From assembly GCA_040757085.1 (NCBI GenBank), contig JBFLXJ010000024.1, positions 1 through 64,000 on the forward strand: 64,000 nucleotides of DNA. Reading direction: 5' to 3'. The first letter of the stretch is position 1. Each line of letters starts with the position of its first letter. This document shows, piece after piece, positions 51,438 through 62,033 of this stretch. The notes under the pieces were generated by a model. It was not told the origin of the DNA. It searched no databases and was given only the letters and a program-made list of their open reading frames with translations. This DNA is from Bacillota bacterium (GTDB lineage: Bacteria; Bacillota; Sulfobacillia; JACIYH01). The position numbers and the translations under genes were made by a program.

Positions 51438-52946
51438 ATGGACACCTTAACCCTGACCGCAACACCACTGGTGGACGCCCTGACAGAATACGCGCGCCAA
51501 GGTGTGATCAGGTTCCACATGCCCGGACACCGGGGAGGCCAAGGCTGCCCGGATGTCCTGCGGGATTGGCTGGGCGAGGCTATGCGGCTGGACGCCACCG
51601 GCGTATTGGGCCTGGACGACCTCCACCAGCCCGGCGGCGTACTGCAGATCACCCAGGAACTGGCTGCCCGGTGCTTTGGAGCCGACCATACCTTCTTCCT
51701 GGTAAACGGCACCTCGGCGGGCGTCCACGCCATGATCCTTGCCACCTGTGGCCCAGGAGACAAGATCATCGTCGCTCGCAACCTCCACAAGTCTGCCCTG
51801 GCCGGGCTGGTGCTGTCGGGTGCCCACCCCATCTATGTCCAGCCCGAACTCGACTCTGAACTGGGCATCAGCATGGGCGTGGAAGCCCACGCGGTCGCCG
51901 CCGCCCTCGAGACCCATCCCGAGGCCCGGGCCGTGCTGGTGGTCAGCCCCACCTATTACGGCGTCACCAGCGATCTGGAGGCCCTGGCCGCCCTCGCGCA
52001 CAGCTATGACGTCCCCCTGCTGGTGGACGAGGCCCATGGCCCTCACTTCCGCTTTCACCCCGCTCTCCCCACCCCCGCCCTGGAGGCGGGGGCAGACGCC
52101 GCCGCCCAGGGCATCCACAAGATCCTCTCCGGCCTGACCCAGGCCTCTATGCTCCACCTGCGCGGCAACCGGGTGGACGTCACCCGCATGCAGTATGTGC
52201 TCCGGATCCTGCAGAGCACCAGCGCCTCGTATCTGCTCATGGCCTCCCTGGACGCCGCGCGCGCGCAAATGGCCAGAGAGGGCTACCGCCTGTGGGAGAA
52301 GGCTCTCCACCTGGCCGCACTGCTGCGCGAGGGAGTGGCCGCCATCCCCGGCCTGGCCACCTTCGGCCGGGAGCGCGTGGGCAGGCCCGGCGTCCACGAC
52401 CTGGACCTGACCAAGGTCACCGTGCATGTCGCCGGCCTGGGTATCAACGGTCCCGAAGCCGAGCACATCCTGCGCTACCGTTACGGCATCCAGGCGGAGA
52501 TGTCTGACCTGTACAACCTGCTCTTCATCGTGGGATACGGCAACACCCGTGAGGAGGTACTCTACCTCCTGGGTGCCCTGGCAGCCTTGGCCCGGGAAGC
52601 AGGCGCCTGCCACAATCCGTCGTCGGGCTCATACTCCGCCCCGGATTCCCCCACCTCCTGCGGCACACCTGATACCGTCCGGGTACCTCCTCTGCCGCCC
52701 GTACCCCCGCTCCAACTGCTCCCCCGAGAGGCCTTCTTCCGGCCCTCCCGCCCGGTGTCGCTCGAGCATGCCCGCGGTATGATCTCTGCCGAAACGGTCA
52801 CCTGCTATCCGCCGGGAATACCGGTGCTGTGTCCGGGCGAACTGGTCACCCCCGAGGTTCTCGACTACCTCCTGGCGATCCGCTCCGCAGGGTTGCGCAT
52901 CTCCGGTCCCGCCGATCCCGATCTCCGCTACCTGCGGGTCCTCTAA
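51438..52946 (+). CDS. Orn/Lys/Arg decarboxylase family PLP enzyme
   Basis: About 502 residues. Fold-type I decarboxylase: RFHMPGHRGGQGCPDVL, DATGVLGLDDLHQPGGVLQI, TFFLVNGTSAGVHAMILATC, ARNLHKSALAGLVLSGAHPI, VVSPTYYGVTSDLEALA, LLVDEAHGPHFRFHPALP and the PLP-lysine stretch AQGIHKILSGLTQASMLHLR. The C-terminal small domain ends ISAETVTCYPPGIPVLCPGE. This is the short Bacillota YaaO/SpeA type that makes agmatine, cadaverine or putrescine; the substrate cannot be fixed. The ATG follows AAGGAGG. Confidence 0.92.
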   Translation: MDTLTLTATPLVDALTEYARQGVIRFHMPGHRGGQGCPDVLRDWLGEAMRLDATGVLGLDDLHQPGGVLQITQELAARCFGADHTFFLVNGTSAGVHAMILATCGPGDKIIVARNLHKSALAGLVLSGAHPIYVQPELDSELGISMGVEAHAVAAALETHPEARAVLVVSPTYYGVTSDLEALAALAHSYDVPLLVDEAHGPHFRFHPALPTPALEAGADAAAQGIHKILSGLTQASMLHLRGNRVDVTRMQYVLRILQSTSASYLLMASLDAARAQMAREGYRLWEKALHLAALLREGVAAIPGLATFGRERVGRPGVHDLDLTKVTVHVAGLGINGPEAEHILRYRYGIQAEMSDLYNLLFIVGYGNTREEVLYLLGALAALAREAGACHNPSSGSYSAPDSPTSCGTPDTVRVPPLPPVPPLQLLPREAFFRPSRPVSLEHARGMISAETVTCYPPGIPVLCPGELVTPEVLDYLLAIRSAGLRISGPADPDLRYLRVL

Positions 52947-53005
52947 CCGTGTCGCCAAAGCCTCCTGAAACCCACGGTCGCATATAGATTAGCCGGGGTG
53001 AGGAA

Positions 53006-54589
53006 GTGGAGGCCCTCCTGACCAACATGTGGACCACGGTGAGACCGAGCCCCAGCGGGCAGGCCCTGGTTTCCGCCGTCGTGCTCGAATCCACCCGGCC
53101 TCCCACCCGGTGGCATCTGGAGACGCGGGGCCCCCTGGAACTGGAACTGCATGTGGAAGGACTGGCCCTCAACTTCCCTCCGGCCCGCCTGCCCGTCCTG
53201 GACGGTCTCGTGCACGAGGTATCCGTCGGCCCACACGATGGTGCGATCACAACTGCCATCCACCTGGACCACCCATCTGCCCCCACCCTGGCCCTGGAGG
53301 GGGACGGGCCGTTTCGCCTGCTATGCTGGTTTGACCGTTCTCTCCTCCGGCAAATTATGGGTGGAGTCAAGGTACTTGTGGACCCCGGCCACGGGGGGAA
53401 AGATGCCGGGGGGCGGGGCCCCATCAACCTGGTCGAAAAGAACGTGACCCTGAAAGTGGCGCGCTACCTGGTCGGAGAACTGCGGGCATGGGGTGCCCAC
53501 CCCCTGGTAACCAGGCATGACGACCGCGACGTGCCGGCCAGCCACCGCTTTCTGCCGGCCCGGGAAGGGCAGGCCCGGATAGTGGTCAGCCTGCATACCG
53601 ACCGCCTGCGCGACCCCACCGTGCGCGGGGTGCGGACCCTTTACTGGACCTCCCACCCGGGGAGCCGCGACCTCGCCCACCACATCCACCATTGCCTCCT
53701 GGAACGTACCGGCTTCCCCAGCCGGGGCGTACGCCAGGCCAGGCCTCCGGACCCGCGGGTGGCGGTACCGGCCGTAACCGTGGAGCTGGTGTGCATCAGC
53801 AACATGCTGGACGAAGCCTGGCTGCGCAGCACCACCTTCCTGGCGCGGGCAGCCCAGGCCATCACTCGCGGCATCAAAGACTACCTGTTCTCGACTGCTT
53901 CCCAGGCACGTCCTCCCGAGACCCGCAGGGCGGGAGTCGTGCCGCAGGTCTGCTTCTCTGCCATCCCCGTGCGCACCCACGTGCTATCCGAGCAGGACGA
54001 CATGGTCCAGGTGGTGGCCCGCTACACGCGGGGAATCGCGGAACCAGGTGACGTCATCTGCGTGGCCGAGTCCCCTCTGGCGGTAACCCAGGGACGTGCC
54101 ATCGTATCTTCCCAGGTAAAGCCCGGCCTGGCCGCCCGCGTGCTGAGCAAGTTTCCCGACCCCGACGGGAGCCTGGGTACCCCTCAGGCCATGCAACTGG
54201 CCATTTCCGAAGTGGGGCTGGGCCGTATCCTCGTGGGCGGGTTAGCCGCTGCCCTGGGTAGAGCTGCGGGCCGGCGGGGCGACTTCTTCCGGGTGGCCGG
54301 GCAGGCCCTGGCCCAAATCGACGACATCGCGGGGACCATGCCCCCCTATGACCGCCACGTGGTCCTGGGGCCCCGGGACCCCCAGAAGGTGGCGGATTCT
54401 ATCAAGCGGGCCACCGGGGTAGACGCCCTGGTCGCCGACGTCAATGACATCCGTTGTGTGGACATCCTGGGATCCACGAGCGATTACCCGGAGGCCGCCC
54501 TCACCGAGGCCCTGCGGGAGAACCCCTTCGGCAACGACGATCAGTGCACGCCGATAGTCGTGCTCAAACCCCTGCGGCGCGACCACTGA
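53006..54589 (+). CDS. AMIN + N-acetylmuramoyl-L-alanine amidase + F420:gamma-glutamyl ligase-like fusion
   Basis: One uninterrupted 527-residue frame with three parts. Residues about 15-113 form a beta-rich AMIN-like region (RWHLETRGPLELELHVEGLA, GPFRLLCWFDRSLL). Residues 119-295 are an Amidase_3 domain with zinc ligands H129 (VDPGHGGKDAGG), E144 (NLVEKNVTLKV) and H197 (IVVSLHTDR) and catalytic-type E260 (VTVELVCISNMLDEAWL). Residues 318-525 match CofE/F420-0:L-glutamate ligase-like proteins (IPVRTHVLSEQDDMVQVVAR, GSLGTPQAMQLAISEVGLGR, AQIDDIAGTMPPYDRHVVLG, RENPFGNDDQCTPIVVL). No signal peptide is visible, unusual for a wall amidase. The GTG start follows GGTGAGGAA. Confidence 0.85.
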   Translation: MEALLTNMWTTVRPSPSGQALVSAVVLESTRPPTRWHLETRGPLELELHVEGLALNFPPARLPVLDGLVHEVSVGPHDGAITTAIHLDHPSAPTLALEGDGPFRLLCWFDRSLLRQIMGGVKVLVDPGHGGKDAGGRGPINLVEKNVTLKVARYLVGELRAWGAHPLVTRHDDRDVPASHRFLPAREGQARIVVSLHTDRLRDPTVRGVRTLYWTSHPGSRDLAHHIHHCLLERTGFPSRGVRQARPPDPRVAVPAVTVELVCISNMLDEAWLRSTTFLARAAQAITRGIKDYLFSTASQARPPETRRAGVVPQVCFSAIPVRTHVLSEQDDMVQVVARYTRGIAEPGDVICVAESPLAVTQGRAIVSSQVKPGLAARVLSKFPDPDGSLGTPQAMQLAISEVGLGRILVGGLAAALGRAAGRRGDFFRVAGQALAQIDDIAGTMPPYDRHVVLGPRDPQKVADSIKRATGVDALVADVNDIRCVDILGSTSDYPEAALTEALRENPFGNDDQCTPIVVLKPLRRDH

Positions 54590-54599
54590 AACCGTTGGG

Positions 54600-54990
54600 G
54601 ATCAAGGCTTTCCCGCAACCACTCCTGGGGCATTCTGGCAGCGGAGCCGGGAATGGCCCAGCCGTTCGGCCACCACCTTCGGGTGCACCCCCTGCCGGAG
54701 CAGGATCGTGGCTTGGGTGGCCCTCCGCAGGGGCAGCACGCCGACGGCCTTCGCCCCGGGGGCGTACGGGGACGCCACGGCGATCCCCGCGCCGCCAAGC
54801 AGGACGGCGCGGGCCAGTGCTAGGGCGACGGGCGCCCCGACTGTCCCGTCGGCGTCCACCACGAGGAGCCGGAGGGCGGGCAGGTCGGCGGAGAGGCCCG
54901 CAGGCCATGAAGGAGGCCAGAGAGGGCCCGGGCCTCGTTGAAGGCGGGGAGCACGATCCAGGTGATCGTGTCCAAGGGGCACCATGTCGC
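54600..54990 (-). pseudogene. Relic: frameshifted glycosyltransferase 2 start joined to an integrase tail
   Basis: Reading minus strand, DTITWIVLPAFNEARALSGL is the start of a family 2 glycosyltransferase. After a frameshift, DLPALRLLVVDADGTVGAPV continues its nucleotide-binding core. Further on, in the second frame, QATILLRQGVHPKVVAERLG followed by HS is the HxxR-helix part of a tyrosine recombinase. Neither protein is complete, so this is a junction of two decayed genes. Confidence 0.7.
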
Positions 54991-55056
54991 GAGCGCGCGG
55001 GTCTGTCTTGACGCCCTACCGTTGGTCTGTTATTTTGGATGCAGGAGTGATGGCAT

Positions 55057-55260
55057 ACGAAAACCACGCTGTATGTTGACCGAAATCTGTTGGAGGAAGC
55101 GGCGAAGCTGGCCGGGTTCAAGAGCTTCACGGAGACGATCCACGCGGCCCTCTCCGAGTTCGTCCGCAGGAAGCGCCTCGAGCAACTCGCCGCCGCCCTG
55201 GGCACCGTCGACCTCGCGCTCGACGACCGGGCGCTGGAGGAGCTGCGCCGCGATGGCTGA
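55057..55260 (+). CDS. VapB-type antitoxin with an ACG at the start position
   Basis: A 67-codon frame reads KTTLYVDRNLLEEAAKLAGF, KSFTETIHAALSEFVRRKRL, EQLAAALGTVDLALDDRALE and ELRRDG. It is a ribbon-helix-helix antitoxin of the type that pairs with PIN toxins. GGAGTGA lies seven bases before the first codon, which is ACG where ATG is expected; an in-frame TGA is just upstream and no ATG, GTG or TTG lies nearby until a TTG at codon 12. The antitoxin may start at ACG or may be damaged. Its stop overlaps the toxin start by eight bases. Confidence 0.7.
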   Translation, partial: TKTTLYVDRNLLEEAAKLAGFKSFTETIHAALSEFVRRKRLEQLAAALGTVDLALDDRALEELRRDG

Positions 55261-55666
55261 CCGCTTCCTGGCCGACACTTCCCTCTGGATCGAGGCCCTG
55301 CGGCCGGGCGGACGGTCGGACATCGCGGCGTGGCTGAAGCAAGCCATACTCCGCGACTCGGTCGTGCTAGCCCAGCCCGTACTGGCCGAGCTACTGATAG
55401 GGGCGCGCGATGAGAGGCAGTCCGAAGAGCTCAAGAAGAAACTCGGCGCCCTGCCGCTCTTGGAGGTGGGAGGCCAGGTGTGGGAGCGGGCAGCTTCCCT
55501 GGGCTTCAGACTGCGCCGCCGGGGGCGCATGGTGCCGCTGGTGGATCTCTTGATCGCGGCGTCGGCCCTGGAGGGCTCGTGCGTGCTGGCCCACAGGGAC
55601 GAGCACTTCGAGGTGGTCAGGGAAATCGAACCGGCGCTACGCACCATCGACTTTCTCGTGTCGTGA
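55253..55666 (+). CDS. VapC-type PIN-domain ribonuclease toxin
   Basis: 137 residues of a PIN nuclease. The acidic site is complete: D8 (FLADTSLWIEAL), E46 (PVLAELLIGARDERQ), D98 (VPLVDLLIAASALE) and D116 (LAHRDEHFEVV). VapC enzymes cleave tRNA or rRNA when not bound by VapB. It overlaps the antitoxin gene, the usual operon form. Confidence 0.9.
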   Translation: MADRFLADTSLWIEALRPGGRSDIAAWLKQAILRDSVVLAQPVLAELLIGARDERQSEELKKKLGALPLLEVGGQVWERAASLGFRLRRRGRMVPLVDLLIAASALEGSCVLAHRDEHFEVVREIEPALRTIDFLVS

Positions 55667-55918: not shown

Positions 55919-57229
55919 TCAGCGGTCGCCTCCCGGCGTCCCCGGGAAAAGTGGCGACTTGGAGGTCAGGCCCTCGGCGCGCAGTTTGACCTCGACCTGT
56001 ACGTCCACAGGCAAGCGTCCGTAAATCTTATCCCAGTGCTCCCTCACGGCAAACCACTGTTGCGGTCGTTTCCGGTACAACCACCAGCCGAAGCCGAACA
56101 CGTCGGCTCCCATTTCCTGGGTTCGGCGCAGCGCGCTGGCGAGGTCCTGCGTGAGCGCCGTGGCCAGCGCTCGTTCGAGCTGCTTGAGCCTGGCCGGCTC
56201 GATGAAGTAGGTGGGGGTAAGTTCTTCGCGGAGTTCTGCCGCAACACGCAGGCGCGTTTGCCCTCTCAACTGGCCGCCTTCGGTCATCAGTTTGATTTCC
56301 GGGCGGTACGACAGCACGCGCGCCGTGATCGGGGCCCCCGAGTCGGGGGCGGTGGCCCGGATGAGTGGCCGCCTTGCCCTGCGCAGCGTTAACGAAACGG
56401 CTAATGATTCGTTCTGCGGAAGCGCACCCACCATGCGATCTCCCCTGAATACCGCCAATCCCGCGGCGCGAACCTCCGGGGTGGGCGGAACCGTACCCGG
56501 GGCCGCCGTGGTCCGGCCGCCGGCCTGGCCACCCGCCCGGTCGGGACTCCCCGATTGCCCCCCGGGTAAGGCCTGGGCTTCCGGGGGAACGATTTCGACC
56601 ATTGCCGCCACCGGCTGCATGCCCTCGGCGTGCAGGGCGAGGCCGAAGCGGCCAGCAGGCGTGGCGATGGTGGCCCCGGTGTCAGCCGCCAGTTCCAGCA
56701 GGGCGACCAAGCCTGCCCCCGGGATATCAGCCAACCGCGGCTGAAAACGCAATAGCTCTTCCGCCCGGCCGGGGGTAACGATGAGCTGGGCGGCGCGGCG
56801 CGCCTGTGCATCTCGGGTCAGGAAGTCCCACAGGCTGGCGACACCCCTGTCACGAGCCACCTGCTCCGACATGACCACCGCCTGCAGGTGGGACAGCGCC
56901 GGCGTGCGGGGCAGGTATTCACACAGAAGATGGAAGCCTTCGCTTACGGCGTCGGTCTCAACCGCCCGCACCCACACACGCGGCGCATCGGCACCGCCCT
57001 CGCCGCCCCCACCGCCCCCTGCCGCCCCGGCTGCTGCACCCCCTGCCAGCATGCGCGGCACCATAATCTGGAAGGTGACCCGCAGGGCGCGGGTGTTCCC
57101 CCGGTCGACGCCCATCGCCACCACATGGGCCGTGCGCTCCGGGTCTTCCGCATCCCAGCAGCCGGAGAGGACCATACATACCAGGGCCAAGCACGCCAGC
57201 GGAACAAGTTTGCCTCGGGGGAGGCTCAC
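55919..57229 (-). CDS. Ger(x)C-family germination lipoprotein
   Basis: About 436 residues. The lipoprotein signal is LVPLACLALVCMVLSGCWDA (lipobox LSGC). Family features: ERTAHVVAMGVDRGNTRALR, FHLLCEYLPRTPALSHLQAV, VMSEQVARDRGVASLWDFLT and the C-terminal LTQDLASALRRTQEMGADVF, GFGWWLYRKRPQQWFAVREH and LPVDVQVEVKLRAEGL. A Gly/Pro-rich insert lies around residues 235-265. It is the C subunit of a germinant receptor in the spore inner membrane. The GTG start overlaps the gerB stop. Confidence 0.92.
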   Translation of the reverse strand: MSLPRGKLVPLACLALVCMVLSGCWDAEDPERTAHVVAMGVDRGNTRALRVTFQIMVPRMLAGGAAAGAAGGGGGGEGGADAPRVWVRAVETDAVSEGFHLLCEYLPRTPALSHLQAVVMSEQVARDRGVASLWDFLTRDAQARRAAQLIVTPGRAEELLRFQPRLADIPGAGLVALLELAADTGATIATPAGRFGLALHAEGMQPVAAMVEIVPPEAQALPGGQSGSPDRAGGQAGGRTTAAPGTVPPTPEVRAAGLAVFRGDRMVGALPQNESLAVSLTLRRARRPLIRATAPDSGAPITARVLSYRPEIKLMTEGGQLRGQTRLRVAAELREELTPTYFIEPARLKQLERALATALTQDLASALRRTQEMGADVFGFGWWLYRKRPQQWFAVREHWDKIYGRLPVDVQVEVKLRAEGLTSKSPLFPGTPGGDR

Positions 57230-58389
57230 GGCCGGGCCCTCCTTGCCCGCACAGGGGAGGCATGCCGTCGCCCCGTGGACCTGGGGGTGTGCCCTGACCG
57301 CGCCGAACCGGTGACCTGCCGGCGGCGCCACAAAAGCCCCAGGACCACCACGGCTGGCAGGAGCGTCTGGAGAGCCGCGGAGACGATGCCACCCCAGAAC
57401 AGGACCCGGCTGTACACGGTGCGCTGGGAGGGCACGTTGAGGGCGAATACCGCGGTCAGGGCGGCCAGCAGGGGGATCAGGGGACGGTGGTCACCAAGCC
57501 CCAGGATGCACCCGGCAGCCCGCGCCTGTACGATGAAGAGGAGGGCGATTTTGGCGAAGGAGACGAGCATCCAGATGGTTGCGACTGCCACCTCGATTCG
57601 TTCCAGCAGGGGGGGCACCCGCACCACCCGCAGACCCTCGAGGAACGAAAAGGGTATGCGGGAGAGGTTGTACCATCCCAGGATCCCCTGATCCACGGCG
57701 AGCAGGCCCCCCGTCACCACCCAGGTGATGAGCAGGCCTGCCAGCAAAGGTCCCGAGCGCCGCGTCCCGCCCAGAGCCGGCAGCAGCATGCCCAGCGCCA
57801 CCACCTCCCCAAAAGGGAAGGCGGAAATGGGGGCGCCCCGCAGGGCGGGAAGAGGGCCGCGGGCAAAAACGGGAAACAGCAGGCGGGGGTCGAACTGGCC
57901 CACAAGAAGCGCGACGCTGGGGATGAGGCCCGCAACGAGCAGCGCCACGGTTATTCCCCCGGCCCTCGCCACCGGTTCGGTGCCGTAGAACGCACCCCCA
58001 ATCCCCTGGGTCACGAGCAGGACCATGTTGGCCCACAGGGGAGTCACGCGGAGGAAGGTTTCCTTGATGAAGGCGCTGCTCGCCCGCAGGGTGGTGTACG
58101 TCATGAAGAGGAATACGGCCAGCAGCAGGGTGCCCAGCAACTTACCCCCTGCCTTTCCCAAACCTTCCTCTGCTGCCTCTATCAGGTCCTTCCCCGGGGC
58201 CAGGCTGGCTACCGCCAGCAGCAGCAGTACCACAGCTACTCCGTTGAAGCCGCCCATGAGATTGGCCACCCAGGCATCCTGTTCCGCCATCTCCGCCACC
58301 AGGGAGGGCACCAGGAGCAGATAGCGCGGCCAGATGAGGATGAACAGGAGTAATGCCGCCTGTCCGGGAGAAATGCGTACTTCCTTCAT
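57226..58389 (-). CDS. GerAB-type germinant-receptor permease subunit
   Basis: 387 residues with about ten predicted membrane helices. It begins MKEVRISPGQAALLLFILIW and includes AWVANLMGGFNGVAVVLLLL, LFMTYTTLRASSAFIKETFL, AFPFGEVVALGMLLPALGG and a late VAVATIWMLVSFAKIALLFI. These are endospore germination permease features (APC superfamily). The subunit binds the germinant. The ATG overlaps the gerA stop (ATGA). Confidence 0.92.
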   Translation of the reverse strand: MKEVRISPGQAALLLFILIWPRYLLLVPSLVAEMAEQDAWVANLMGGFNGVAVVLLLLAVASLAPGKDLIEAAEEGLGKAGGKLLGTLLLAVFLFMTYTTLRASSAFIKETFLRVTPLWANMVLLVTQGIGGAFYGTEPVARAGGITVALLVAGLIPSVALLVGQFDPRLLFPVFARGPLPALRGAPISAFPFGEVVALGMLLPALGGTRRSGPLLAGLLITWVVTGGLLAVDQGILGWYNLSRIPFSFLEGLRVVRVPPLLERIEVAVATIWMLVSFAKIALLFIVQARAAGCILGLGDHRPLIPLLAALTAVFALNVPSQRTVYSRVLFWGGIVSAALQTLLPAVVVLGLLWRRRQVTGSARSGHTPRSTGRRHASPVRARRARP

Positions 58390-60095
58390 CGCCGCTCCCC
58401 CGTCTTCCCGCCCGTCGTGCGCGCGCCCGGGCCCGGCGGCTGGGGTGACGGCTTCCGCTGCGGGCGCAGGCCGCCCGGCTCCTTGGGCCTGCGCACCATC
58501 ACCCACCAGGGCACCCGCACCATGAAGTCCTTTAAGTCACTGGCGACAAGAGGGGCGACGGGCGAAAGGTAGGGCGTACCGAACGAACGAAGCGCCGAGA
58601 GGTAATAGAGGCCCACCATGAACCCCCAGCTCACGCCGACCAGGCCAAACATGCCCGCCAGAATGGTAAACAAGACCCGCGGCAGCCACAGGGTGGCAGC
58701 CCCTGCGTAGAAGGGAACCAGGAACGAGGTGATGGCCGTGACTGCGGTGACGATCAGCATCAACGGGCTTATGAGAGAGGCCCGCGTGGCCGCCTCGCCC
58801 ACCACCACCGCTCCCACCACGCTCACCGCCTGGCCCACCTGCCGGGGCAGACGCGACCCGGCCTCCCGCAGTACTTCGAAGGCGCCCCCCATGAGGAGCG
58901 CTTCTCCCAGGGAGCTGACGGGAATGCCCTCCCGTCCAGCCGCAACGCGGGCAAAGAAGGTGGTGGGGATGAGTTCCTGGTGGAAGCTGACCAGAGCCAC
59001 ATACAGGGCGGGAAGAGTTAAGCTCGCCTGGATGCCGATGAACCTCATCAGGCGGGCCATAGTGGCTACTACAGGCTGAAGGTAGTAGTCGTCGGCAGCC
59101 TGGAACAGGACACCTATGTTTAGCGGTGCCACCAGCGCGGAGGGGCTCCCGTCGACGAGTATGGCCGCTCGGCCTTCCAGCAGGTTCCCCACCACCCGGT
59201 CCGGTCGTTCGGTGACCAGGACCACGGGAAACAGGCGTAACCTGGCATCGATAATGTGGTCTTCCAGATAGCCGGTGTCGAGCACCCCGTCTATCCGGAT
59301 GCCCCTGAGACGTTCCACGATCTCCCGTATGACGTCTGGCCGGGCCAAGTTCTGCAGGTATACCACCGCCACCCGGGTGCGCGAAATATCCCCTACCTGC
59401 AGGGTGAATACCTGCAGGTCGGGGTGGGGGAGGCGCCGCCGGATCTGAGCCAGGTTGGATTCCAGGTCCTCGGTCAGACCATCGTGGGGCCCCCGCAGCG
59501 ATGCCTCCAGCGTGGGCTCGTCGATCCCCCGGCTGCGCGGTGCCTGCGTCCCCGCCAGGAGCACCCTGTCCGACCCCTGCAGGAAAATGGCCGTCTGTCC
59601 ACGGCAGATGCCCTCCAGTACCGCGCGCCTGCTGCCGGCCTGCTGTAACTCTCCGGTCTCAATCAGGGCTTCCCCGAGGTATTCCAGCCGCTCGGACGGG
59701 GAACGCAAGCGCCGGTACCTTTTCTCTGCTTCCTCGGTTTTGTTGCCCACGAGCGGACTCACCACACTCTGAGCGACCACCCCCTTGGGCACCAGAGACG
59801 ACAGATAGGCGATCAGTATCCGGGTGTCGGGATCCACTGCCGGGCGCAGGCTACGTGTCACCAGGTCGGGCGGGGAACCAAGGGCATCCCGCAGCCACTG
59901 CTCCACCTCCGCGATCGAAGCAGGTGCCGGATCCTCGGGCAGCGGCCGCCGGAGTCCCTGTTCGTTCCTTTTCACGCTGGACGCGTGTCCCCGTGCGCCG
60001 CGGTCGTGCAGGCTACCATCGCCCGTCTTGCCCCCGGCGGTTCTCCTCAACATGCGCCCCAGCCACTTCCAGGTGATGCCCAGACTCCACCGCAT
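58386..60095 (-). CDS. GerA-type germinant-receptor A subunit
   Basis: 569 residues. The N-terminal soluble half includes DPDTRILIAYLSSLVPKGVV, GICRGQTAIFLQGSDRVLLA, SRGIDEPTLEASLRGPHDGL and TEDLESNLAQIRRRLPHPDL. The membrane half shows GNLLEGRAAILVDGSPSALV, SFHQELIPTTFFARVAAGRE and GVSWGFMVGLYYLSALRSFG with PYLSP. It is the first gene of gerA-gerB-gerC, normally made in the forespore under sigma-G. The ATG has AAGGTG upstream. Confidence 0.94.
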   Translation of the reverse strand: MRWSLGITWKWLGRMLRRTAGGKTGDGSLHDRGARGHASSVKRNEQGLRRPLPEDPAPASIAEVEQWLRDALGSPPDLVTRSLRPAVDPDTRILIAYLSSLVPKGVVAQSVVSPLVGNKTEEAEKRYRRLRSPSERLEYLGEALIETGELQQAGSRRAVLEGICRGQTAIFLQGSDRVLLAGTQAPRSRGIDEPTLEASLRGPHDGLTEDLESNLAQIRRRLPHPDLQVFTLQVGDISRTRVAVVYLQNLARPDVIREIVERLRGIRIDGVLDTGYLEDHIIDARLRLFPVVLVTERPDRVVGNLLEGRAAILVDGSPSALVAPLNIGVLFQAADDYYLQPVVATMARLMRFIGIQASLTLPALYVALVSFHQELIPTTFFARVAAGREGIPVSSLGEALLMGGAFEVLREAGSRLPRQVGQAVSVVGAVVVGEAATRASLISPLMLIVTAVTAITSFLVPFYAGAATLWLPRVLFTILAGMFGLVGVSWGFMVGLYYLSALRSFGTPYLSPVAPLVASDLKDFMVRVPWWVMVRRPKEPGGLRPQRKPSPQPPGPGARTTGGKTGERR

Positions 60096-60358: not shown

Positions 60359-60865
60359 TTGGACGAACCGAATGCCTCAGCCCTGCGGCTGCGGGAACTC
60401 ATGAGGAGGTTGGTCCGCGGCATCGGTTTGCTGGAGCGCGGAGATGCCGCCTGCTGCGGGATCACGCTTTCCCAGTGCCACGCCCTCGGCGAGGTCGCGG
60501 CCCAAGAAGGACTGACGCCCGGCGAACTGGCTGCCCGCCTCGGTATCGATCCCAGCGCCGTCACGCGCATCGCAGATGCCCTGGTGCAGAACGGGCTGGT
60601 GCGAAGAGAAGGAGATCCGTCCGACCGCAGGGTGGTACGCCTGGTGCTGACGCCGGAAGGCCGTCACTTCTGGTCGCGCGTGCAGGAAGCCATGCTGGAG
60701 CGCTCGCGGGCACTCCTGCAGCGTCTGCCGCCGGACCGGCGACCGCTCGTGCTCGCCGCACTGGCAGACCTGGTAGAGGCCCTGGAAAAAGAGGGCTACC
60801 TTGGATCCGTTGAAGGAGGACGGTGCCATGGAGGAGCTACAACGGGCAGTGCTGGCCCGCTATGA
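60359..60865 (+). CDS. MarR-family transcriptional regulator
   Basis: 168 residues. LERGDAACCGITLSQCHALG is followed by the winged helix: EGLTPGELAARLGIDPSAVT, RIADALVQNGLVRREGDPSD and RRVVRLVLTPEGRHFWSRVQ. Cysteines (two in ACCG, one in SQCH) near the first helices could ligate a thiophilic metalloid. It uses a TTG start with a weak ribosome-binding site. The 3' end overlaps the arsM fusion by 38 bases, so it probably controls that gene. Confidence 0.88.
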   Translation: MDEPNASALRLRELMRRLVRGIGLLERGDAACCGITLSQCHALGEVAAQEGLTPGELAARLGIDPSAVTRIADALVQNGLVRREGDPSDRRVVRLVLTPEGRHFWSRVQEAMLERSRALLQRLPPDRRPLVLAALADLVEALEKEGYLGSVEGGRCHGGATTGSAGPL

Positions 60866-62033
60866 CGAGATCGCACGCTCGTGCGAAAGGGAACCGGGGG
60901 AGGAAAGCGGACTGGGCTGCGCCCGCCTGGCCGAGCTGGTGCAGCTTTTCCCCGGGGAAGTCCTGCTCGACATAGGGAGCGGCCCCGGCCTGGAAACGAT
61001 CGAGCTGGCTCGGCTGGTCAACCCTGCCCCGGCGTTTGGGCTGGACGCCCTGCCGTCCATGGTGGAGGTGGCCGAGGAGAACGCAAGAAAGGCGGGGGCA
61101 TCCAACGCCCGTTTCCTGGTCGGACGCATGGAGGCCATTCCTCTGGAAGACGGTTGCGTCGATGTGGTGGTGTCCAACTGCGTGATCAACCTGTCCCCGG
61201 ACAAGGAGCGGGTGATGAGAGAGATCTGGCGGGTACTCCGCCCCGGGGGCCGGGTTGCCGTGGCCGACATGGTCTGGCTGGGCCCGCCTCCAGCCCTGCT
61301 GCGGACTGACCCCGAAGCCTGGGCCTGCTGCATAGGGGGCGCACTAGAAGCCACGGAGTACCCGCTGCTGTTTGAGAGGGTCGGGTTCACAGACGTGCGC
61401 TTGCAGATACTGGGGACGTTCGATCCGGCAGGCCTATCCTCGTGCTGTCCCCAGGGTACCGCCCGGGGGGCAGACGGGCTTGAACCCAGCACGGGGCCAG
61501 AGGCTCCGCCTGCCACGCCGTCCTGCTGCTGCGCTTCCCGCCAGCCAGCAGCACTGGCGAGCGCCCTGGTCACGGCCCGGAAACCGGGGCCCCCGGGCGG
61601 CACCGTCGAGGTGAGGGAAGCGCGGTCCGAGGACCTGGGTCTCGTGCTGCGCATCTTGCAGGCGGCGGGCTTGCCCACCGCGGGCGTGTCGGAGCACCTC
61701 GGGTCGTTCCTCCTGGCCTGTACCCCCGAGGGCAGGGTGGTGGGAGTGGCGGGGCTCGAGCGCTACTCTGCCAGTGCCCTGTTGCGCTCGCTGGTGGTGC
61801 TCCCCTCCTGGCGCCGCCAGGGGCTGGGACGCCGCCTGGTGACGGCCCAGCTTTCCCGCCTCGCCCCCGGCACTCCCGTCTACCTCCTCACCACCAGCGC
61901 CCAGAGATACTTCGCTTCCCTGGGCTTCCAGGCCATTCCCCGCGGAGAGGTACCACCGGAAGTGAAGGAATCCCTCGAGTTCCGGGAAGCCTGTCCTCAG
62001 TCTGCGACCGCAATGTACTTGCGCGTCTATTGA
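60828..62033 (+). CDS. arsM: Arsenite methyltransferase fused to an ArsN2-like GNAT acetyltransferase
   Basis: 401 residues. Residues 1-205 form a SAM methyltransferase of the ArsM type: VLLDIGSGPGLETIELARLV, VDVVVSNCVINLSPDKERVM (C118), WRVLRPGGRVAVADMVWLG and AWACCIGGALEATEYPLLFE (C167/C168). A cysteine-rich linker follows (SSCCPQG, then PSCCCASRQ near 232-238). Residues 258-400 are a GNAT domain matching ArsN2: LQAAGLPTAGVSEHLGSFLL, LRSLVVLPSWRRQGLGRRLV, YLLTTSAQRYFASLGFQAIP and EACPQSATAMYL. The methyltransferase detoxifies As(III); ArsN-type GNATs acetylate arsenic-containing amino acids. The ATG has AAGGAGGA seven bases upstream. Confidence 0.88.
   Translation: MEELQRAVLARYDEIARSCEREPGEESGLGCARLAELVQLFPGEVLLDIGSGPGLETIELARLVNPAPAFGLDALPSMVEVAEENARKAGASNARFLVGRMEAIPLEDGCVDVVVSNCVINLSPDKERVMREIWRVLRPGGRVAVADMVWLGPPPALLRTDPEAWACCIGGALEATEYPLLFERVGFTDVRLQILGTFDPAGLSSCCPQGTARGADGLEPSTGPEAPPATPSCCCASRQPAALASALVTARKPGPPGGTVEVREARSEDLGLVLRILQAAGLPTAGVSEHLGSFLLACTPEGRVVGVAGLERYSASALLRSLVVLPSWRRQGLGRRLVTAQLSRLAPGTPVYLLTTSAQRYFASLGFQAIPRGEVPPEVKESLEFREACPQSATAMYLRVY

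Follow-up and report, generated by a model that had tools for sequence, protein, structure and literature searches.

The window, a 64,000-nucleotide stretch of DNA from a Bacillota bacterium of the class Sulfobacillia, carries a gene in which an amidase and a CofE-like ligase are joined in one protein (Table 1). Pfam matched Amidase_3 at aa 123-291 (E=2.6e-32) and F420_ligase at aa 322-382 (E=4.8e-8), the latter over the curated cut-off with the N-terminal part of the domain alone scoring. The fusion was modelled with AlphaFold2 from a 59-row alignment of window proteins, related loci and loci cut from whole genomes, and the model had a mean pLDDT of 93. No Pfam model matches aa 1-117, but a Foldseek comparison with the PDB matched E. 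coli AmiC (4bin) over both the AMIN and amidase parts, and we therefore regard this region as AMIN-like. In the predicted structure it also matches the B2 domain of PilQ (4aqz). Amidase_3 catalytic domains in the PDB matched the model with a TM-score of 0.90 and an rmsd of 1.5-1.8, and A. fulgidus CofE (2phn, 7uld) matched with probability 1.00, E-values of 3.9e-7 to 4.2e-6 and TM-scores of 0.52-0.55 on the target. The first strand (aa 4-14) was modelled confidently, so that the GTG start fits and leaves no space for a signal peptide. Pfam and AlphaFold2/Foldseek thus agree with the first-pass annotation, which had described a single frame of AMIN-like, zinc amidase and CofE-like parts, and the zinc site that it called intact has all four residues (H129, E144, H197, E260).

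Table 1. Features of the fusion locus and of related loci.
Feature	Position	Strand	Basis or remark
PLP-dependent Orn/Lys/Arg decarboxylase (OKR_DC_1)	51438..52946	+	59 bp upstream of fusion, same strand; 30 further related loci have one nearby
GCATATAGATTAGCCGGGG, 19 bp just 5' of fusion start	52980..52998	+	Conserved in three congeneric genomes
Fused gene, AMIN-like + Amidase_3 + CofE-like ligase	53006..54589	+	527 aa, GTG start, TGA stop
AMIN-like N-terminal beta domain, aa 1-117, without signal peptide	53006..53356	+	Model pLDDT ~95; Foldseek 4bin, 4aqz
Amidase_3 domain, aa 118-297	53357..53896	+	Pfam, Foldseek, residue conservation
Metal/catalytic residues	H129 53390-53392; E144 53435-53437; H197 53594-53596; E260 53783-53785	+	
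Variable linker, aa 298-317	53897..53956	+	pLDDT <50 at aa 308-312; alignment with relatives
CofE-like (PF01996) ligase domain, aa 318-527	53957..54586	+	Pfam, Foldseek, alignment with CofE
Small membrane-anchored protein	L134:5265-5813		Equivalents in L135-L139, L172-L191, L152, L044
Loci with histone-deacetylase-family and hydantoinase/oxoprolinase-like genes downstream	L172, L173, L175, L177-L179, L181-L183, L185-L187, L189, L191		

The decarboxylase gene is the probable operon partner of the fusion. The 19-bp element between the two genes is a candidate promoter -10-like or ribosome-binding region; the conserved GCATATAGATTAG element has one exact copy in the window genome, and no genome-wide regulon was found for it. 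Directly downstream of the fusion, a short frame at 54602-54985 (-) resembles the C-terminus of a tyrosine recombinase by eye, with no Pfam match. A PIN-domain protein (54938-55666, +) is probably a toxin of the VapC type whose antitoxin gene immediately precedes it, and a spore germination operon lies at 55919-60095 (-), with GerAC and GerAB identified by Pfam and a GerAA-like gene by eye. The frame at 60801-62033 (+) appears by eye to hold an arsenite-methyltransferase-like domain and a GNAT acetyltransferase.

The same uninterrupted fusion frame was found in two further congeneric genomes, which keep the junction open at the place where the first-pass annotation had allowed for a missed stop or indel. 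Indels among the congeneric fusions are multiples of three, and the linker between the amidase and CofE-like parts evolves fast and varies in length by whole codons. Relative to the nearest relative, dN/dS (Nei-Gojobori) was 0.25 for the AMIN, 0.13 for the amidase and 0.08 for the CofE-like domain. In the three species of the genus that were compared, purifying selection acts on each of the three domains. An assembly or frameshift artefact was rejected on the strength of the congeneric fusions, the dN/dS values and the in-frame indels. The fusion of amidase and CofE-like ligase in one protein is real, which confirms the earlier observation.

The ligase domain alone was used as a query against 84,980 species genomes and returned 346 relatives. 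The best 80 of these 346 were kept and, with nine further loci, gave the 89 loci analysed here. The loci are clustered by descent, so that counts among them are not independent; gene order does differ between clades. Amidase and ligase are fused at 16 of the 89 loci and lie within 250 bp of each other at 59, where the amidase is upstream on the same strand in 49, often overlapping the ligase start, and divergent in 10. Nine more loci have a same-strand amidase at up to 6 kb. A clear full-length amidase is missing at 5/89 loci, three with a weak or partial match and two with none. Hosts of the pair include Moorella, Pelotomaculum, Desulfotomaculum, Desulfofundulus, Tepidanaerobacter, Thermanaeromonas, Ammonifex, Limnochordaceae and Fermentithermobacillaceae. 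The fused and separate states are related by about four changes on the ligase tree, and well-supported branches force at least two. The homologues are therefore not always two adjacent genes, the case that the first-pass annotation had named as a refutation, even if most are adjacent. A plasmid search returned distant amidase matches only, and a search of the available literature found no description of an amidase paired with a CofE-like protein. The amidase-ligase pair is conserved in the Bacillota and, as a module, apparently undescribed.

The amidase half shares with CwlD and AmiC-type amidases (PF01520) the Amidase_3 fold, the zinc ligands and the catalytic Glu, and with AmiC the AMIN-like N-terminal domain. 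In contrast to these enzymes, the fusion has no signal peptide or membrane segment and has a C-terminal ligase, and it scores 67.6 bits against the CwlD equivalog TIGR02883 (cut-off 221.55). A hydrophobic N-terminus was found in none of 84 related amidases, in line with the first-pass call of no signal peptide, whereas neighbouring CwlD genes in the same loci have one. H129, E144, H197 and E260 are kept in 82, 84, 82 and 78 of these 84 amidases, respectively. Both His zinc ligands are lost in the L037/L070 lineage, and L055, L061, L079 and L091 have another residue, mostly Lys, in place of the catalytic Glu; the amidase-ligase pair is kept in all of these. Amidase catalysis is therefore not always needed, and the earlier view of a protein that both cuts and ligates is unproven. 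The same losses, together with the missing secretion signal, would fit a mainly regulatory or scaffolding role, in which the amidase half serves as a sensor of muropeptides or precursors and governs the ligase, much as CwlM controls MurA. Mycobacterial CwlM is likewise a cytoplasmic amidase homologue, and clades of it without zinc ligands exist (PMC4946905). It is likened to the amidase half by these features and not by orthology, and it regulates MurA and has no ligase partner. Since all four residues are kept in most members, the window protein included, we consider such a role quite unlikely.

The ligase half resembles CofE (2phn, 7uld; PF01996) in fold and in the general order of conserved motifs, and its conserved IDD and DVND align, by sequence only, with the metal-site region that holds the CofE active-site Asp residues. 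It differs from CofE in being fused to or paired with an amidase, in a genome where no F420 pathway was found, and in lacking, in the alignment, a segment of ~25 residues that corresponds to the hairpin covering F420 in CofE (PMC10861534). A genuine F420 or folate gamma-glutamyl ligase with an incidental amidase fusion would account for the F420_ligase match over the Pfam cut-off. This reading is strongly disfavoured and has hardly any chance of being right. Against the CofE equivalog TIGR01916 (NCBIfam) the fusion scores 14.3 bits with a cut-off of 180.65, and the sole CofD-family match in the window genome is YvcK, with no CofD orthologue found; an F420 role was rejected on these grounds. 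A folate role was rejected because FolC is present (E 4.6e-116). The missing hairpin and the presence of three CofE-like paralogues in one genome also speak against both roles. Besides the fusion, these are a copy adjoining a SpoVB-like flippase (L048) and a copy in one frame with TPR repeats (L049:6749-8998 (-); C24:81372-82001 in its own genome). There is a precedent for recruitment of a CofE homologue outside F420 biosynthesis in Chlamydia CT611/FolC2 (COG1478), which has another substrate in a genome without F420 biosynthesis (PMC1971073). FolC2 replaces FolC, whereas the window genome keeps its FolC. In another clade, seen in related genomes, a CofE-like domain lies C-terminal to a full-length asparagine-synthase-like amidotransferase in a Pfam-checked frame of 965 aa (L052:7655-10549 (-)), and similar asparagine-synthase + CofE-like open frames of 900-969 aa occur in related genomes (L018, L019, L021, L027).

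The most prominent neighbour association, revealed by gene clustering, is with amino-acid decarboxylases. A decarboxylase lies within 1.6 kb at 53 of the 89 loci, always on the same strand. OKR_DC_1 is upstream at 17 loci (window included) and downstream at 14, and the non-homologous pyruvoyl-dependent arginine decarboxylase, PvlArgDC, is downstream at 20 and upstream at 2. Further lineages have PvlArgDC beside the ligase (L044, L045/L046 and L152), and OKR_DC_1 recurs in L151. The window genome has just two OKR_DC_1 genes in 2.67 Mb, so that chance adjacency is estimated at roughly half a percent per locus. The occurrence of two non-homologous decarboxylases in several arrangements suggests that the decarboxylase product is what matters, and their recurrence indicates an amine other than glutamate. 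With such neighbours and without the F420-covering hairpin, the glutamate ligation proposed in the first-pass annotation has no specific support. Known CofE-family enzymes (CofE, FolC2) do take L-Glu as the amine (PMC10861534, PMC1971073), which counts against polyamine ligation. It fits, as does the decarboxylase linkage, a ligase that makes small-molecule conjugates such as gamma-glutamyl-agmatine or glutamyl-polyamine for storage, transport or detoxification, with the amidase fold acting on the conjugate and not on peptidoglycan. This explanation is unlikely, since the amidase is close to peptidoglycan amidases (TM 0.90) and has an AMIN-like domain, and the neighbours encode lipid II flippases, L,D-transpeptidase and glutamate racemase. 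Recurrent wall-gene neighbours are a SpoVB-like flippase (after the fused genes), the Amj flippase, L,D-transpeptidase, CwlD and D,D-carboxypeptidase.

To place the ligase in a wider context, a sample of the phylum was searched, and a ligase homologue was found in 114 of 299 genomes. Some ligase-bearing genomes lack SpoIVA and have LpxC, which marks them as diderm and non-sporing. In one of them, G088, a lysine/ornithine decarboxylase is ~94% identical (own count) to 5gjm from Selenomonas ruminantium. Through this similarity G088 is assigned as a probable Selenomonas relative. Exactly one ligase homologue is present in 146 of 150 genomes of its class (123 of 124 good genomes). A strict link to sporulation was rejected for the wider family because its hosts include such non-sporing genomes; the forespore connection suggested earlier is still plausible for the several clades with SpoVB, CwlD and Amj neighbours. 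In a 90-row tree the amidase-linked clade is sister to the Selenomonas-class clade, and a SpoVB/AsnB-linked clade lies apart.

The near-universal presence of the sister clade in the Selenomonas class is of interest because cadaverine or putrescine is found there on the alpha-carboxylate of peptidoglycan D-Glu (PMC10628300, PMC12826042), the reaction proposed here. The polyamine activity of the family is a proposal, and the ligase partner in that class differs from the amidase. At 26/26 Selenomonas-class loci the ligase adjoins a small protein that has a membrane segment at its N-terminus and is matched by no Pfam model. The same protein (hhalign E=2.5e-14) is encoded ahead of the ligase in L152 and L044, two loci where the ligase lies next to PvlArgDC. 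Glutamate racemase lies within three genes of the ligase at 21 of the 26 loci. This neighbourhood is possibly incidental, since the gene string MurI-rph-rdgB is common in its own right. Separately, in 14 loci (Table 1) the CofE-like gene is closely followed by genes for a histone-deacetylase-family and a hydantoinase/oxoprolinase-like protein; the histone-deacetylase family includes acetylpolyamine hydrolases.

That the ligase of the Selenomonas class has a quite different partner, which is no amidase, also bears on muropeptide recycling. In this reading, which is close to the idea of the first-pass annotation, one bifunctional enzyme would act on muropeptides that are imported or come from the forespore. 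The amidase would strip off their stem peptides in the cytosol, and the ligase would couple an amino acid, glutamate or another, to the lactyl or peptide carboxylate so exposed. The substrate of CofE carries a lactyl carboxylate, as does muramic acid, and the CofE fold, the zinc site intact in most members, the missing secretion signal and the CwlD and SpoVB neighbours of some clades are all consistent with recycling. Besides the change of partner, several amidases that keep the ligase have lost catalytic residues, and the recurrent adjacency of two unrelated decarboxylases is left unexplained. We therefore give recycling a small chance.

A ligase that is fused to or side by side with an amidase, and usually near a polyamine-making enzyme, may be an enzyme that attaches polyamines to the wall. 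We tentatively favour, at a probability of about 40%, a cytosolic ligase that joins a decarboxylated amino acid to carboxylates of peptidoglycan precursors, on account of the fused or adjacent amidase, the decarboxylase linkage, the wall-gene neighbours, the Selenomonas-class sister clade, the CofE fold and the lack of an F420 or folate role. Attachment of decarboxylated amino acids to wall-precursor carboxylates is the simplest account of the neighbour and clade links. Slightly more doubtful is the wider proposal that the Bacillota CofE-like family is the enzyme linking polyamines to peptidoglycan D-Glu, and that in clostridial spore formers a cytosolic amidase is fused or paired with it and decarboxylation products of Arg or a related amino acid are used. 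Substrate, amine, direction and ligation site are in each case what we infer. The decarboxylase would supply the amine, either agmatine or a diamine. In a step that takes a nucleoside triphosphate and a pair of metal ions, the CofE-like domain would activate a carboxyl group of a peptidoglycan precursor or of a muropeptide, for which the free alpha-carboxylate of D-Glu is the most likely candidate, and would couple the amine to it. The MurNAc-peptide substrate would be bound by the AMIN-amidase domain, which in members with an intact catalytic site may also free or edit the stem peptide. The partner would thus hold the ligase to its substrate, as AMIN-amidase in clostridial spore formers and as membrane-anchored protein in the Selenomonas class. 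Against polyamine ligation, a decarboxylase is lacking within 1.6 kb at 36 of the 89 loci, and none was found near the 26 Selenomonas-class ligases examined.

Taken as a whole, the first-pass interpretation is partly supported. Whether or not the ligase acts on polyamines, the locus belongs to a conserved amidase-ligase-decarboxylase module with a ligase that is F420-like by family name in a window genome without the F420 pathway. Wall polyamine modification was described in the 1980s; in diderm Firmicutes it serves to anchor the outer membrane. To our knowledge, no gene has been assigned to polyamine attachment to peptidoglycan D-Glu, and a search of the available literature found no paper naming one. 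We also know of no measured activity for any member of this CofE-like family, and of no polyamine-modified wall from Moorella, Pelotomaculum or the window's class. If the proposal is true, the family would provide a candidate gene for wall polyamine modification, and polyaminated peptidoglycan or spore cortex would occur in groups where none is known. Polyamine-wall chemistry would then extend to monoderm spore formers, and the question would become testable.
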